Shown here in pieces: positions 2,662 through 48,148 of a stretch of 48,148 bases of DNA (position 1 is its first letter; each line of letters begins with the position of its first letter). Origin of the DNA: a virus; the IMG/VR virus record IMGVR_UViG_3300005466_000013, positions 1 through 48,148 of that record, one strand, 5' to 3'. The notes under the pieces are model-generated. The model saw nothing but the letters and a program-made list of their open reading frames with translations, did not search any database and was not told the origin of the DNA. Position numbers and translations under genes: made by a program.

Positions 2662-2973
2662 TTAGTTTCCATTGATCTTAGGCGGTAAAGGTTTGAGTAA
2701 ATCGGCGTGTTTTACAAAAAGGTCTGTTAATGCGATTTCTATAACTTCCTTCCTGGTTCCTATCCTACCCCAATAGATTAGCTTTTGTATATTTTCCTCC
2801 ATCGAAACCTTTAAATCTAAAGAGGTTTTTATAATAGGCTCTTTTTCCTTTTTTGGTTCTTCAATAAAACTGGCGGCGGTGTTTATGTTTACATCTTCGC
2901 CCCTTTCATTAGCCTTTACAAGCCCGCCCAACAATTTGCTAGGGCTTCTTTTTGGTGTTGTCTCGTTTTTCAT
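2662..2973 (-). CDS. Putative partition partner / ribbon-helix-helix protein downstream of parA (103 aa)
   Basis: The ATG at 2973-2971 overlaps the parA TGA (ATGA), so the two are coupled. The N-terminal ~45 residues are basic and disordered-looking. The C-terminal half (about residues 46-95) has one beta strand (I-K-T-S-L-D-L-K-V) followed by two helices, consistent with a ribbon-helix-helix DNA-binding domain. Small RHH proteins next to a short ParA are the usual centromere-binding partners of plasmid type Ib partition systems. The assignment rests on position and secondary-structure pattern, not on a recognised family. Confidence 0.6.
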   Translation of the reverse strand: MKNETTPKRSPSKLLGGLVKANERGEDVNINTAASFIEEPKKEKEPIIKTSLDLKVSMEENIQKLIYWGRIGTRKEVIEIALTDLFVKHADLLKPLPPKINGN

Positions 2974-3650
2974 ATTTCGCATTTGTGTAAAAATTCTTTA
3001 TAGAAAATGTTGTATTCGTCTTTCTGTCTTTTTGCTGGCACTATGTCCTTAATCGTAGATGGAAATCTTTTATATCTTACTAAATCCGATAGATCATTTT
3101 TAAACAGTTGCAGCCCCTTAAAACCGTCGAACTCGTAAAGCTCGTTGTATTCTAGTGTTCCATCGTTTTTATTCACCACCCCGAATAATTTAAAACCAAA
3201 GCCCTGAGCGCGTCTTTTGGCTGCGATTGGCGGTATTACTTCTAAAAAAGTGATAGTGCTTCTAAGGTCTTTCTTTGAGGCTATTAGGGGAACTATTACA
3301 ACATCTGAAACCATAACAACGGAAGGAACGCCCTGCCCTTCTAACCTCCCTTGCGTATCTATTAGAATTACGTCGTATAAATCTTCCTTTTCTGCAATGA
3401 GCTTGCAAAACCTTTCGACGGGGTTATCCTTTTTATCTTGAGGCTCCCACTTAAAAGGTGAAATATCGTAAGCATTTACGCCCTCGGTTTGTTCGTCGCG
3501 CCTTTCTTCGTAAATACTTAATTGTTCGTCGGCGTCAACTACAAGTACCCGAATCTTTTTTCGAGCATGGAGGGAACCAGCTAATAAAGTGCAAAGCGTT
3601 GATTTTCCTACGCCTCCTTTCCTGTTCATAAATGAAATAATTTTAGCCAT
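2970..3650 (-). CDS. parA: ParA-type partition ATPase (226 aa)
   Basis: The deviant Walker A box is R-K-G-G-V-G-K-S-T (Lys11 signature lysine, Lys16 P-loop lysine), followed by V-V-D-A-D-E-Q (Walker A') and V-I-L-I-D-T-Q-G (Walker B). The length and absence of an N-terminal HTH fit the short type Ib ParA family, which moves plasmid copies over the nucleoid using ATP. It is first in a two-gene operon with the probable centromere-binding protein. The AT-rich repeat region 3651-3780 upstream is a natural place for the operator and parS-like site. Confidence 0.9.
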   Translation of the reverse strand: MAKIISFMNRKGGVGKSTLCTLLAGSLHARKKIRVLVVDADEQLSIYEERRDEQTEGVNAYDISPFKWEPQDKKDNPVERFCKLIAEKEDLYDVILIDTQGRLEGQGVPSVVMVSDVVIVPLIASKKDLRSTITFLEVIPPIAAKRRAQGFGFKLFGVVNKNDGTLEYNELYEFDGFKGLQLFKNDLSDLVRYKRFPSTIKDIVPAKRQKDEYNIFYKEFLHKCEI

Positions 3651-5748: not shown

Positions 5749-7106
5749 GACAGTAGTATTTTAAGAATGATCCCTATGATTATACCCAACAATAAGAAGA
5801 GTAATTTTTGATGCAAAGTCAGGTCTTTTCTGACTACTACCCGACCAGGATAAACATCGACCTTGCCTTCCAAATCAAAGTACATAATCTTGACACTCGG
5901 CAACATGCCCCAAACGCCGCTATAAGAATTATGACCTCCCGCCGTTGCTACGTTGTTTGTCGGGAAATTTCTCTTATAGCCCTCTTTAATTTGTTGATCT
6001 TCATACCAGATATTTCCTTGACTGTACCAAGTATCAAAAGAAGCGTTCCAGTCGCTATTAAAAGGGCTTATTTTTTTGCCTTGTATTGTCCTATTAGTTC
6101 TCCCGGCAGCGTAACTGATTTGATGCTTTATAACTGTGAGAATAGATTTGTCTCCCCCTGCCGTTCCTGCCGATCCTTTCGAAGTATGGAAACCAAATAA
6201 ACTTGCATCTCCTGACCTTGCTAGTGCATCTGCCAGCATAATAGCATTGTGAGGGCTGTAAGAAGCATAAGCCCAACCTAAATACGGCGTAGAGCTGCCC
6301 CAACGCTCGAACTCTGAGGTAGTGCCGTCTGGAAAGGTCGCAAACATTAGCCACTCTTTCACGAAATTTACCCCTGAATCAATCAACTCTTTTTCCCCTG
6401 TTAGCAGTCCCGCCAAGGTGGCAAAAGTCAACATTTGGCCGCGTCTGTTGTTATACCAAAGCGCGTTCTCTGGGACTTTCGGCCCTCCGTCATACATAAT
6501 TTCCCCGGATAGATTTTCTGATTTTAAGACATAATTAGCCTTATCAGAATACAACCCATTGAGCCGGGGAACGGTATTATCTACAAAAAACTTACCGCTG
6601 TTGAAAAACCACCTTTTTGCTTCTACTCTTTCGTCCTCATTGAAAAGGTTCATCGAATAGACGTAAGCATATAAGAGACGTTGAAGCCACTCAGAAACTA
6701 TAAAGCCGGGATTAATGTCGTTTACAGCGGTCGTCCACCTTGTTCTGTTACTAAAGTCAACTTTCGGATCACGAAACTGCTTTTGAAGTTGCTTTTTTAC
6801 CGCCGCTCCTATAGCTGCATCCTGGTTCAACATAAACATAAAAGCGGCTGCAAGGATTTTTGTTCCTTCGAACTGCGGCTCGGGTGTACTCCATTGAACT
6901 ACAACCTCCGAGCTCGGGCCTGAATAGTAATCGTCTTCGGGGTCTGCTAGAAATGAATTTGCATTACTGTTTACCCTCTGAAATTCGCTCGAATAATAAG
7001 AATCTGTTTGTCTGGCTTTCCAAATAATAATCTCTTCCTCAGAAACGAACTTTCCAGACGGTAATCCGGTAGAGGTTTTGGGCTTAATTACAAGGGTAGT
7101 AAACAT
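5727..7106 (-). CDS. Polysaccharide-lyase-like protein with C-terminal membrane segment (459 aa)
   Basis: The middle (about residues 75-390) is rich in paired helices with W-Y-N-N-R-R-G-Q and Y-S-P-H-N-A motifs, reminiscent of alginate-lyase-type (alpha/alpha) toroid enzymes. The last 30 residues form a strong hydrophobic helix (L-L-F-L-L-L-G-I-I-I-G) and a polar end, unusual for a virion enzyme. Its place just after the tail fibre and lectin genes suggests a capsule- or slime-degrading virion enzyme, or an enzyme anchored in the cell envelope. The fold call is from pattern only and the catalytic residues were not verified. Confidence 0.5.
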   Translation of the reverse strand: MFTTLVIKPKTSTGLPSGKFVSEEEIIIWKARQTDSYYSSEFQRVNSNANSFLADPEDDYYSGPSSEVVVQWSTPEPQFEGTKILAAAFMFMLNQDAAIGAAVKKQLQKQFRDPKVDFSNRTRWTTAVNDINPGFIVSEWLQRLLYAYVYSMNLFNEDERVEAKRWFFNSGKFFVDNTVPRLNGLYSDKANYVLKSENLSGEIMYDGGPKVPENALWYNNRRGQMLTFATLAGLLTGEKELIDSGVNFVKEWLMFATFPDGTTSEFERWGSSTPYLGWAYASYSPHNAIMLADALARSGDASLFGFHTSKGSAGTAGGDKSILTVIKHQISYAAGRTNRTIQGKKISPFNSDWNASFDTWYSQGNIWYEDQQIKEGYKRNFPTNNVATAGGHNSYSGVWGMLPSVKIMYFDLEGKVDVYPGRVVVRKDLTLHQKLLFLLLGIIIGIILKILLSWFIISN

Positions 7107-37809: not shown

Positions 37810-38850
37810 TCAAAAAGGGGCTACTTCCGGTTTATCTTTTTCATAAAAATTAATAGGCTGTTGTGCCACTGGTATTTCCCAACCGTTAAGCGGGGAGTCT
37901 CCATTTTCTTCGTTATATCGATTGGTTTTCCTGTCGAAAGTCAATTCAATTACTCCCGGTATTCCTACAAGCTTCTGATTTTTGACCTTATGGACATGGA
38001 GTTGTACTGCTTGGTCTGTTTTGTCTGCATGAAAATTAGGTCTATGGGCTGCCACTATTACGTCCATAGCGTTAAGCCACATTGCGCCGCCTCTCAAGTT
38101 GTAACCGTCAGGAACTGGTAATGAACCGTCTTTGTTTTTTACAATCCCGCCTCTTGGATGCTCCACGAAGTTAAAAACCAAACCTTTTCTAATCGCAAAA
38201 TCTTTGATCATTGCGAATTTTGAGGCCAAATATTCATCCAAAAGGCCGCTATAGTTGTGGATAACTTTATTCCAAGGGTCTAAAATGCAACCGTCTGCGC
38301 CTTCAGTGCCTACCACATAATCGAAATATTTTAAAACTACATCGGCTGTTTTTAATTCTTCTGGATAGATGACAGTAAAGTACTTATCAACGAATTCTAT
38401 TCCCCGGTTATATTCGGCCTCCGACATTTGCAAAAGTCCGTAATACGGGTCTGTAGTTTTTCCGATGTAGGAGTGTATCAAAGTATCATAAATTTCCTCC
38501 GGCGTAAGGTTCCCTTTCTCATCTGAACCCATATTTTCAGGGCAGAAGATTACCCATTTTTTCTTCGCATAAATGGAACGAGCCAAAGCCAATTGTAAAA
38601 TCATTTCGGTTTTCCCGTGGTTTGGAAATCCTGTCCAAGCATACAAAAAACCTCTTTTCCATGTCATGTGTGGATCAATCGACCGGAAATAAGTTGTTTC
38701 TCCTCTCGGTTTTCCTTTCTTGAAGGAAAGTTTCATGCTGTCGGCATAATCTGAGGCTTTGTAAATTCCCTTTTTGTAGGTCTTTTTTTCATCGGGGTTA
38801 CTGTCCAAAACTTTCATTATTTCGCCGGAAAATTCAGTGCCGTAAGTCAT
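37810..38850 (-). CDS. DnaB-like replicative helicase (346 aa)
   Basis: RecA-type motor: G-F-P-N-H-G-K-T (residues 74-81, Walker A), G-C-I-L-D-P-W-N (Walker B) and F-V-E-H-P-R-G-G. It lacks the N-terminal DnaB domain, so it is a short Twinkle/gp4-like helicase core. Placed after the replisome-organiser-like gene, it is probably loaded by it at the phage origin. Confidence 0.82.
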   Translation of the reverse strand: MTYGTEFSGEIMKVLDSNPDEKKTYKKGIYKASDYADSMKLSFKKGKPRGETTYFRSIDPHMTWKRGFLYAWTGFPNHGKTEMILQLALARSIYAKKKWVIFCPENMGSDEKGNLTPEEIYDTLIHSYIGKTTDPYYGLLQMSEAEYNRGIEFVDKYFTVIYPEELKTADVVLKYFDYVVGTEGADGCILDPWNKVIHNYSGLLDEYLASKFAMIKDFAIRKGLVFNFVEHPRGGIVKNKDGSLPVPDGYNLRGGAMWLNAMDVIVAAHRPNFHADKTDQAVQLHVHKVKNQKLVGIPGVIELTFDRKTNRYNEENGDSPLNGWEIPVAQQPINFYEKDKPEVAPF

Positions 38851-39203: not shown

Positions 39204-39938
39204 TTACCCTCCAAACAGCTTATCTTTTTCCTCTACTGTGTATTTCTTTTTTGTAATCGCAAGCACTGGCGCGGGTTCTTTGTTTTCTTCGTCAAACCAA
39301 ACTGAAATCATTTTTTGTTTCCAGTTATGGACTTTGTTTCCAAATGAATCATGCCAATCTGAAGCCTCATAATAATCAAAAGCTTTTTGAGCTGATCTTT
39401 TTGTATATCCTTTTTCTTTAAAGAAAGAAACTACTTCATTAAGGGAAGGGTGATTAGTATTACTACTCTTCTCTTCTTCTTTATCTTCTTCTTTATCTCT
39501 CTCTTCTTCTTGCCATGCTTCGCTATTTTTTTTATGGCGGTCGTTATGCTTCGCTATACTTTTTTTAACGGTCGTTATAGTGTCGCTATCGGTCGCTATT
39601 TTTTTCTTATTTTCCCATCGTTTTTTTGCTCCCAATTTTCCAGCTTCGGAGGCTTGAGCTTTTGTTTTTTCCAGGCTAATCGTATAATCTTTCACTTGAT
39701 GATCCAAAAAAGAAACATGCAAAAAATCCCCTTCCTGTTTTACAAAACCTAAATCTTTAAGTTTTTGAAGGTATTTTTTTCCGATCCTGTAATCAATGTC
39801 GGAGTCTTTCATTTTTCCTTCTAACTTCCAGTATAAACAACAAGCTTGTAAAAACGCCCCTTGTATGTCTAGCTTTTGAAAGGAAATCCTGCCGATTAGC
39901 CACCTTGCTACATCGAATTTAAAATAAGGTAGTTCCAT
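39204..39938 (-). CDS. Replisome-organiser-like replication initiator (244 aa)
   Basis: The N-terminal ~85 residues (F-K-F-D-V-A-R-W-L-I-G-R-I-S-F...G-A-F-L-Q-A-C-C-L-Y) fit the DUF4373 / Lin1244-type winged-helix domain of phage initiators. A charged linker follows, then a C-terminal domain (S-F-F-K-E-K-G-Y-T) common to phage replication proteins. The linker DNA holds six phased TCGYTAT words, so the gene may carry its own origin, as lambda O does. Followed by the helicase region. Confidence 0.75.
   Translation of the reverse strand: MELPYFKFDVARWLIGRISFQKLDIQGAFLQACCLYWKLEGKMKDSDIDYRIGKKYLQKLKDLGFVKQEGDFLHVSFLDHQVKDYTISLEKTKAQASEAGKLGAKKRWENKKKIATDSDTITTVKKSIAKHNDRHKKNSEAWQEEERDKEEDKEEEKSSNTNHPSLNEVVSFFKEKGYTKRSAQKAFDYYEASDWHDSFGNKVHNWKQKMISVWFDEENKEPAPVLAITKKKYTVEEKDKLFGG
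39520..39599. repeat. Six phased TCGYTAT repeats: candidate lytic origin
   Basis: TCGCTAT or TCGTTAT occurs at 39520, 39541, 39551, 39572, 39583 and 39593. Spacings are 21, 10, 21, 11 and 10 bp, nearly whole helical turns, so all sites face one side of the DNA. T-runs separate them, and a pyrimidine-rich stretch flanks them. Such an array inside an initiator gene resembles the lambda origin. Confidence 0.62.
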
Positions 39939-45777: not shown

Positions 45778-47040
45778 TTATTTTTTATTCAATTGTCTCA
45801 TTTTGCGCGCGTAGGCTGCAATATATTCATCGTCTGATACTGTCTCTTCATTTTTGCTAAACAATTCACCTACGGCGGCCTTTGCTCCTTCTGGAGTATC
45901 TACATTAACGACCTCGTGAGGATCAAAAGATAATTCAGGTTGAATCTTTTTTAACAGTTTATTCCTTTCGGCTGATACCTGGGTAATCCATTGACCAATA
46001 TTTAAACCATTATACAACCATGATGCAAGGTTTTTAACAGGCTGCTTGTTCTTCTGCTTTTTTAGGTACTCTTTTCGGGCCGCTTCTATTGAAAGTTGAA
46101 CATAATCAACCGACCATTGAAACCCGTTAGGGCTTACGCTCTGAGCATTTATTTTCTGTCTTATTTCTTTCACATAGTGAGGATGAAAACCGGCCCTTAA
46201 TAGAGATTTTTCCCAATCGTTTTGGCCCGCTGGCAAATCGTTTTCATCTTCCGGGCCTTTCCTGAATGTGAAAATTATTTCTTTAACCTTTTTCCCTTTC
46301 TCTTTTGGAAAATAGTCATAAGAAAATTCTGTCCATGTGTTGTCAAAGTCTTCTTTTCCGGCTTCTATTACTCTGTCCCTTAAATCAATCCATCTTTTGT
46401 AATTGTCTGGTACATTTAATTCACTCCTGAAGTTGTCAGGAGATATTTTAACGACTTTCTTCCACGCTTGATTTTTTCGAATCCACCAATAAAACGGGCC
46501 AGAGATAGCATACTTCAACTTCCTCAGTGCCTCAATATCTCCTTTTGTGAAATTAGTAGGAGGCGGCAATACTGGAATCTCTTTTATGGCAAGCTTTAAA
46601 GATTCTTCTAACTCTTCATCTTTCTTACCTATAAGTTCCTTTTGGATCATAATTAAAACCCATTTAAAACGAGCGTAAAGCCTTACTGTAAAAGTTCCGT
46701 CTGCAATATTTATTTCAGGAAAAGGAACCATTGAAGAGTCCGAGTCCTCCTTAAAATATTTCAACATAAATTTTCTATCGAAGTAGAATGATGCTGATTG
46801 CAGTCTTTGAGCTAACAGCTCTTTATTTCGCTGCAAATTGGACGGGTCGCCAGTACAAATGTGCTCATCCTTGATAGTATAGGTTAATTGGGTCGGGTTG
46901 TCCCTGTGATTAAGATTAATAATCTCATGGTAAAAATGATGATCACTAATTGTTGATAGGCTGTTTTTGTCTGCATCTCTCAAATGGTTATTAACAAATG
47001 CAGTGTAAAGGCTTGGGTGTTTTATCTCTTCTTCTTTCAT
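45778..47040 (-). CDS. rep: Rep_3-type plasmid replication initiator (420 aa)
   Basis: The conserved Rep_3 second winged helix is at about residues 172-262: L-R-K-L-K-Y-A-I-S...I-S-P-D-N-F-R-S-E-L-N-V-P-D-N-Y-K-R-W-I-D-L-R-D-R-V-I-E and G-K-K-V-K-E-I-I-F-T-F. Long N- and C-terminal extensions make it larger than common RepA/RepB. Five ACCTAACGC iterons lie directly upstream, starting 11 bp from the ATG, which supports iteron binding and autoregulation. Confidence 0.85.
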   Translation of the reverse strand: MKEEEIKHPSLYTAFVNNHLRDADKNSLSTISDHHFYHEIINLNHRDNPTQLTYTIKDEHICTGDPSNLQRNKELLAQRLQSASFYFDRKFMLKYFKEDSDSSMVPFPEINIADGTFTVRLYARFKWVLIMIQKELIGKKDEELEESLKLAIKEIPVLPPPTNFTKGDIEALRKLKYAISGPFYWWIRKNQAWKKVVKISPDNFRSELNVPDNYKRWIDLRDRVIEAGKEDFDNTWTEFSYDYFPKEKGKKVKEIIFTFRKGPEDENDLPAGQNDWEKSLLRAGFHPHYVKEIRQKINAQSVSPNGFQWSVDYVQLSIEAARKEYLKKQKNKQPVKNLASWLYNGLNIGQWITQVSAERNKLLKKIQPELSFDPHEVVNVDTPEGAKAAVGELFSKNEETVSDDEYIAAYARKMRQLNKK

Positions 47041-47050
47041 TTTTTTAAAA

Positions 47051-47177
47051 TCATTGCTGCGTTAGGTTCTTCATTGCTGCGTTAGGTATATATAGTACCG
47101 TTCGTCTTTCCGGCGTTAGGTATATATAGTACCGTTCGTCTTTCCGGCGTTAGGTTTTCGTCATTGCTGCGTTAGGT
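47051..47177. repeat. Iteron array upstream of rep (plasmid origin)
   Basis: GCGTTAGGT on the plus strand occurs at 47059, 47079, 47113, 47147 and 47169. Three copies sit in TCATTGCTGCGTTAGGT, and two follow TTCCG. The unit 47081-47114 (34 bp) is repeated exactly at 47115-47148. This five-iteron set next to the rep gene is the pattern of an iteron-controlled theta origin. Confidence 0.83.
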
Positions 47178-47398
47178 TTGCCTCTGAAACCCTTTACTGT
47201 TGCGGCTTTCCATTTCCTTAAGTAGTATAGTAGTTAAATAAGTAGTAAAAAAGATGCTTTGCATTAATTTTTTTTCTTTTCAATAAGGGTAAAAAAAGAG
47301 GCTTCGCATTTAAAATTTTTAACTCAGACAAAACAAAAAACAAAAAGCTGCAAACCGGAAAAGAGAAAGAAGCACACCGGGGGCGGCGATTTTTTCCC
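47178..47398. other. AT-rich origin region with imperfect repeats
   Basis: No credible gene. AGTAGT words at 47219-47246 are followed by two imperfect copies of an AAAAAAGAxGCTTxGCATT unit (about 47247 and 47292) and T-runs. This suits the DNA-unwinding part of the iteron origin. No DnaA box was recognised with confidence. A GC-rich patch (47376-47390) precedes the hairpin at 47399. Confidence 0.5.
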
Positions 47399-48098: not shown

Positions 48099-48148
48099 TA
48101 TTTGGAATATCACTATCCTTTGTCGAGTGCAAACCCCTTACCCTTGCT
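48099..48148. repeat. Second copy of the 50-bp terminal repeat
   Basis: This is the same 50 bases as positions 1-50. It should be removed once to circularise the sequence. It contains the internal part of the junction-spanning gene whose stop lies at 48091-48093. Confidence 0.93.

Follow-up and report, generated by a model that had tools for sequence, protein, structure and literature searches.

A phased word array inside a phage initiator-like gene: a probable origin of replication, most likely lytic

Where does a phage that probably also persists as a plasmid begin to replicate its DNA, and does it use one origin or two? The question is raised by a virus record from IMG/VR (IMGVR_UViG_3300005466_000013, positions 1 to 48,148), the whole 48,148-base stretch of which is called the window below. 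Positions 1-50 and 48099-48148 are an identical 50-bp direct terminal repeat, so the record is assembled as a circle and the genome is probably complete. An earlier reading of the letters alone (the original prediction) had drawn attention to a cluster of short repeats inside a gene for a likely replication initiator. These repeats and the purine tract beside them can be read with good confidence, from sequence and by analogy, as a replication origin embedded in the phage's own initiator gene, most likely one that serves lytic growth.

The array consists of six copies of the word TCGYTAT (ATARCGA on the coding strand), located by word search between positions 39520 and 39599, and they are candidate iterons for the binding of an initiator. 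On the plus strand the words read TCGCTAT (39520-39526), TCGTTAT (39541-39547), TCGCTAT (39551-39557), TCGTTAT (39572-39578), and TCGCTAT twice more (39583-39589 and 39593-39599). Each is 7 bp long and asymmetric, and no inverted repeats were found. The start-to-start spacings are 21, 10, 21, 11 and 10 bp. A lattice of about 10.4-10.5 bp fits all six words within half a base, with residuals of 0, 0, -0.5, -0.5, 0 and -0.5 at 10.5 bp, and only 14 of 200,000 random placements were phased as well. Runs of seven to eight T lie at 39526, 39560 and 39599, and two of these A/T-tracts occupy empty slots of the lattice. What the original prediction had said of the array itself is thus borne out: six helically phased words in 80 bp at these spacings, all on one face of the helix, with T-runs between them.

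The word itself is not rare, since the window holds 15 copies where 12.9 are expected. With that count and no second cluster, a role for TCGYTAT as a genome-wide regulatory word was ruled out, and the genome-wide count called for at the outset leaves the array as the only such cluster on the plus strand, where no second 7-mer with a single two-fold position has five or more copies within 90 bp. Local dinucleotide shuffles gave a cluster of a comparable word in none of 20 trials. Inside the gene, the six copies compare with a mean of 1.13 over 20,000 synonymous-codon shuffles, two of which reached six; when any comparable word was allowed, synonymous shuffles equalled the array once in 3,000. 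A repeat in the protein was also considered as the cause and rejected, both on these shuffles and because the words occupy two reading frames of the gene at 10- and 11-bp spacings, not multiples of three, so that an amino-acid repeat cannot be their source.

On the coding strand the words take up nucleotides 340-419 of the gene, and directly 3' of them stands a 54-bp purine tract (isolated T allowed; positions 39458-39511, minus strand, coding nucleotides 428-481), a candidate AT-rich unwinding element, asymmetric between the strands, in surroundings of 29-36% GC. The duplex-stability profile of the gene dips at 380-440 bp, but sinks no deeper there than at about 180-200 bp and so does not decide the matter. 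In the relatives described below a purine tract likewise lies directly 3' of the arrays on the coding strand, often as ATAAGAGAAGATAAGA with a 10-bp period, and the longest purine run (isolated T again allowed) has a median length of 42 bp, compared with 15 in control stretches. The codons of the motif encoded by the tract are nearly fixed, with ATA for Ile in 20 of 21 cases (47% overall), AGA for all 29 Arg and GAA for all 20 Glu, which points to selection on the DNA.

The gene that carries both elements (39204-39938, minus strand) encodes a protein of 244 aa whose likeness to replication initiators was judged from the open reading frame, PHROG matches, an AlphaFold2 model and annotated relatives. 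An N-domain (aa 1-112) is followed by a linker, whose DNA contains the array and the purine tract, and by a C-terminal domain (aa ~160-225) common to many phage replication proteins, this part matching phrog_15768. The N-domain matches phrog_29280, of unknown function; when it is set against the DnaD-like and DUF1376-type replisome organisers its matches are weak, with phrog_9327 ('primosomal protein') at E 1e-4 and the winged-helix Pfam model HTH_45 below its cut-off. Residues 1-112 were modelled from 47 sequences (pLDDT 87), and the order of helices and hairpin is that of a winged helix followed by a long helix. Fold comparisons placed the DnaD N-domain in the top Foldseek row (weak, E 0.12) and gave the best Z to the ORC2 winged helix (weak, Z 6.9). 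No match to Phage_rep_O, the mark of lambda O homology, or to RepL, the P1 family, was found in the protein, and NCBIfam gave no useful match. Model and matches together suggest that the protein is likely a winged-helix, initiator-like one. Two genes downstream lies the gene for a 346-aa DnaB/RecA-type ATPase, primase/helicase-like (37810-38850, minus strand), which matches phrog_239 (DNA primase/helicase, E 2.7e-16) and phrog_19 (DnaB-like helicase, E 5.9e-7). An 18.9-kb contig from another sample (L009, IMGVR_UViG_3300046824_000067) encodes a helicase-like protein 100% identical to that of the window; the contig stops before the array region.

No near-identical DNA was present in the phage collection, and no relatives were found in plasmids. 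Relatives of the N-domain occur in Flavobacterium phage morran9-1, Leeuwenhoekiella phage Arctus_1 and Cellulophaga phages phi19:1 and Nekkels; those of the C-domain occur in Elemovirus, Lillamyvirus and the IMG/VR locus L001. The homologous gene is annotated as 'replication protein' or hypothetical, precedes a primase/helicase gene in most cases, and matches replication-initiation PHROGs. A search with the N-domain alignment returned 80 IMG/VR loci which, with the known relatives, gave 58 non-redundant genes; in 84,980 prokaryote genomes the same alignment found two weak relatives, in Lutibacter and Bacteroidia MAGs. When viral contigs were scanned for TCGYTAT words in exactly this arrangement, the six matches were unrelated, about as numerous as a rough chance estimate, and in no case in an initiator gene; no close relative with the exact array was found in this way.

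The layout of the array is nonetheless a property of the family. Self-matches of 8-mers (one mismatch allowed, low complexity removed) at lags of 10, 11, 20, 22 and 32 bp amount to 10.57 per locus between 300 and 400 bp from the start codon, roughly 30-fold above the level of about 0.35 in the 3-kb flanks on either side; control lags in the same interval give 0.34. Nucleotides 280-440 of 56 non-redundant N-domain genes were compared with synonymous shuffles: lag 11 appears in 39 of the 56 (10.9 +/- 2.4 in shuffles, z 11.7), lag 10 in 31 (8.6, z 8.9), lag 22 in 24 (8.3, z 7.7) and lag 20 in 15 (6.4, z 4.2), with no excess at lags 13, 14, 16, 17 or 19. A second N-domain search supplied a held-out set of 13 new non-redundant genes, 10 of which have lag 11 against 2.5 expected from shuffles. 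The pattern extends to 49 non-redundant genes drawn from a tight C-domain alignment, five with and 44 without the LPYF-type N-domain, where lag 11 is seen in 37 (14.3, z 8.2) and lag 22 in 27 (9.1). Here too the arrays lie in the linker before the C-domain, and the N-domains match DUF1376, DUF6291 and Lin1244_N as well as PHROGs named replication initiation protein or DnaD-like helicase loader.

In relatives the arrays hold four to six words, one every 11 bp, examples being AAAGCGAAACG, CAACCATGTAA, ACCCAACTGAA and GACCGTTCAAC; in phi19:1 AACCGAAA recurs at intervals of 22 and 11 bp, and the linker of L001 holds at least five copies of the 11-bp unit TAACAACYRTG. The closest relative (L027, 47% identity) carries another word, and in the second-closest (L028, 43%) ATAGCGA occurs twice, both times in the array and nowhere else in the 3.65-kb locus. 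Of the expectation that the array would be kept in relatives, layout, place and phasing thus hold family-wide, and the word itself generally changes. Relatives with the protein and no clear array, the outcome named beforehand as counting against an origin, form a minority, mainly short N-domain-only proteins (L084, L091, L099); the layout rule is therefore common, not universal.

Several individual loci depart from the usual plan. In morran9-1 (L012) a 31-bp segment of the array has a second, 94% identical copy (6161-6191 and 6341-6371), the extra copy lying 180 bp upstream, within the part of the gene that codes for the N-domain. Stand-alone N-domain proteins of 127-145 aa (L029, L038, L054, L070, L091, L099 and similar ones) would be initiators that became separated from a C-domain or were never joined to one, and several of their genes have words and a purine tract near the 3' end. 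In Flavobacterium elemo phages the replication gene (Elemovirus, L014, 5509-6243), whose N-domain is of another type, has TCGCAWA words about every 20 bp (5826-5920) in its linker and after them an AT-rich GATAGTGTTAGTG repeat; this may be the same layout with a period of two turns. A human-gut phage contig (L026, MT836154.1) has several CGACTAT words at about nucleotides 2648-2870, downstream of a weakly related gene and outside the coding linker, which may mean that here the origin follows the gene.

Which part of the protein goes with the word was examined by partial correlation over 24 genes with a clear array as well as the C-domain. Similarity of the arrays follows N-domain similarity when the C-domain is given (partial r 0.47, equalled in 0 of 2,000 permutations), but not C-domain similarity when the N-domain is given (partial r 0.07, 349 of 2,000). 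That the word follows the N-domain and not the C-domain fits binding by the N-domain, though neighbouring DNA shares ancestry.

The window also contains a second set of replication elements. A Rep3-type plasmid replication initiator of 420 aa is encoded at 45778-47040 (minus strand; Rep3_C E 5.1e-7, above the gathering score; phrog_4402, replication initiation protein, E 2.7e-9), and just upstream of it five plasmid-type iterons with the core KGCGTTAGGT (47051-47178, plus strand) form a presumed plasmid origin. Replicons of this type use a winged-helix initiator that binds direct repeats beside an AT-rich region, and as a rule they have their iterons outside the rep gene. The gene is intact, the iterons are clean, their core differs from the array word, and the whole replicon (45.8-47.2 kb) is separate, about 7.5 kb from the array. 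A ParA-like partition protein is encoded at 2970-3650 (minus strand; phrog_164, E 3.6e-30), and on the circular map this gene and the Rep3 gene with its iterons (45778-47178) are near each other. ParA, Rep3 and iterons probably constitute a plasmid maintenance module, and the phage is probably a phage-plasmid. GC skew was tried as an origin marker and proved uninformative, since it follows gene orientation and leaves no mark at the array site.

A close precedent for the array is ori-lambda, where direct repeats sit inside the initiator gene O. In lambdoid O genes the iterons are followed by an A-rich tract (PMC7466680). The O gene of phage 434, used as a positive control, has iterons from about nucleotide 350 with the A-rich tract after them, and lambdoid repeats occupy about nucleotides 340-430. 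The AT-rich tract 3' of the lambda iterons has its counterpart in the 54-bp purine tract of 29-36% GC, and in lambdoid phages, as in the window, replication functions lie downstream. The words themselves are built differently: lambda iterons are about 18-20 bp, internally symmetric and about 20-23 bp (two turns) apart, whereas those of the family are 7-8 bp, asymmetric and spaced every 10-11 bp, and those of the window are 7 bp, asymmetric and 10-21 bp apart. The comparison with lambda O made in the original prediction therefore stands for the fixed intragenic array, the 3' tract and the downstream helicase, with a protein that is not an O homologue by Phage_rep_O. Its view of the gene as the likely initiator gains strong comparative support from the family-wide array at a fixed place, the purine tract and the downstream helicase, and so does its proposal of a second candidate origin apart from the plasmid origin, the Rep3 gene and five iterons being real and separate.

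Could the array serve some other purpose? An autoregulatory operator or roadblock on transcription of the replication genes would also bind protein at the words; repressors too use arrays of phased sites, and the array lies inside an operon that could be regulated. A promoter would be the more usual place for an operator, and the fixed intragenic position beside a purine/AT tract, the several initiator types and the lambda O precedent favour an origin, leaving this account quite improbable as a substitute, while both functions could coexist. Neutral slippage, in which a disordered linker tolerates any sequence and tandem 11-bp duplications pile up, would suit a low-complexity linker, words that shift reading frame and the near-perfect tandem 11-mers of some arrays. 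It also predicts many unit lengths, yet the out-of-frame lags 13, 14, 16, 17 and 19 are flat in both large sets; the words follow the N-domain, the adjoining tract has codon bias, and no tandem repeat is formed in the window, where spacings of 10, 11 and 21 bp combine with A-tracts in the vacant slots. We regard slippage as very improbable. Hardly any weight falls on a parS-like partition site or a packaging site of the phage-plasmid, even with a ParA-like gene in the genome and some centromere sites that resemble phased repeats: the arrays are always in the replication gene of many relatives, cultured Cellulophaga phages included, and neither the ParA nor the terminase gene is adjacent to the array.

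It is also unlikely, if less so, that the array is the only or main origin in all phases, with the Rep3 replicon vestigial or reserved for another state. The intact Rep3 gene, the five clean iterons and the ParA gene speak against a single origin, as does phage P1, which divides the labour between two origins (PMC9948254). In P1, also a phage-plasmid, the lytic origin has been postulated within repL, the gene of the lytic initiator, and replication is inhibited when an AT-rich region of that gene is altered synonymously; the abstract gives this region, and not a phased word array, as the key element. Both P1 and the window have a separate iteron plasmid replicon beside a candidate intragenic lytic origin, and the window agrees with a two-origin phage-plasmid of the P1 type in its Rep3_C gene, five iterons, ParA-like gene and circular assembly. 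By this analogy the intragenic origin is likely the lytic one: with a Rep3/iteron/ParA replicon 7.5 kb away, the array origin would most likely be lytic and the Rep3 origin that of the lysogenic plasmid.

For the intragenic origin we infer a scheme of word binding, unwinding, helicase loading and lytic timing. The 244-aa protein would use its winged-helix N-domain to bind the TCGYTAT words side by side along one face of the DNA, with the A/T-tracts in the empty lattice slots aiding bending. The resulting strain would open the adjacent AT-rich purine tract, and the C-terminal domain, with the neighbouring 116-aa and helicase-like products, would load the replisome. Lytic replication would start here, and the lysogenic plasmid would replicate from the Rep3 origin. 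Such an origin would function like ori-lambda and P1 oriL without homology to O or RepL, and with a different word grammar of short asymmetric words at each turn.

The same arrangement of a DNA-binding-type N-domain, linker and C-domain, followed by helicase/primase genes, recurs in the DUF1376, DUF6291, Lin1244_N, phrog_9327 and phrog_2514 families, which are matched by relatives sharing the C-domain and for which no origin arrays were reported in the literature searched; nor was a description of phased arrays in phages of Bacteroidota found there, in a search of incomplete coverage. We lean somewhat towards a general, undescribed class, in which unrelated N-domains (DUF1376, DUF6291, Lin1244_N and others) would each have their own word at every helical turn of the linker beside a 10-bp-periodic purine unwinding tract, N-domain and origin forming a swappable specificity cassette on a common C-domain.

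From sequence alone, the analysis narrows a probable origin down to about 150 bp. The rule behind it, that words repeat every 10-11 bp in the linker of the initiator gene with a purine tract beside them, seems valid for more than 100 phage genes, many of unknown function, for which no description of the layout was found. Several 'unknown' N-terminal families would thereby gain a likely function in sequence-specific origin recognition, and because the word tracks the N-domain, co-evolution of initiator and origin becomes directly testable. Beyond the enterobacterial model P1, the window itself would be a further case in which a phage-plasmid has two separate presumed origins.
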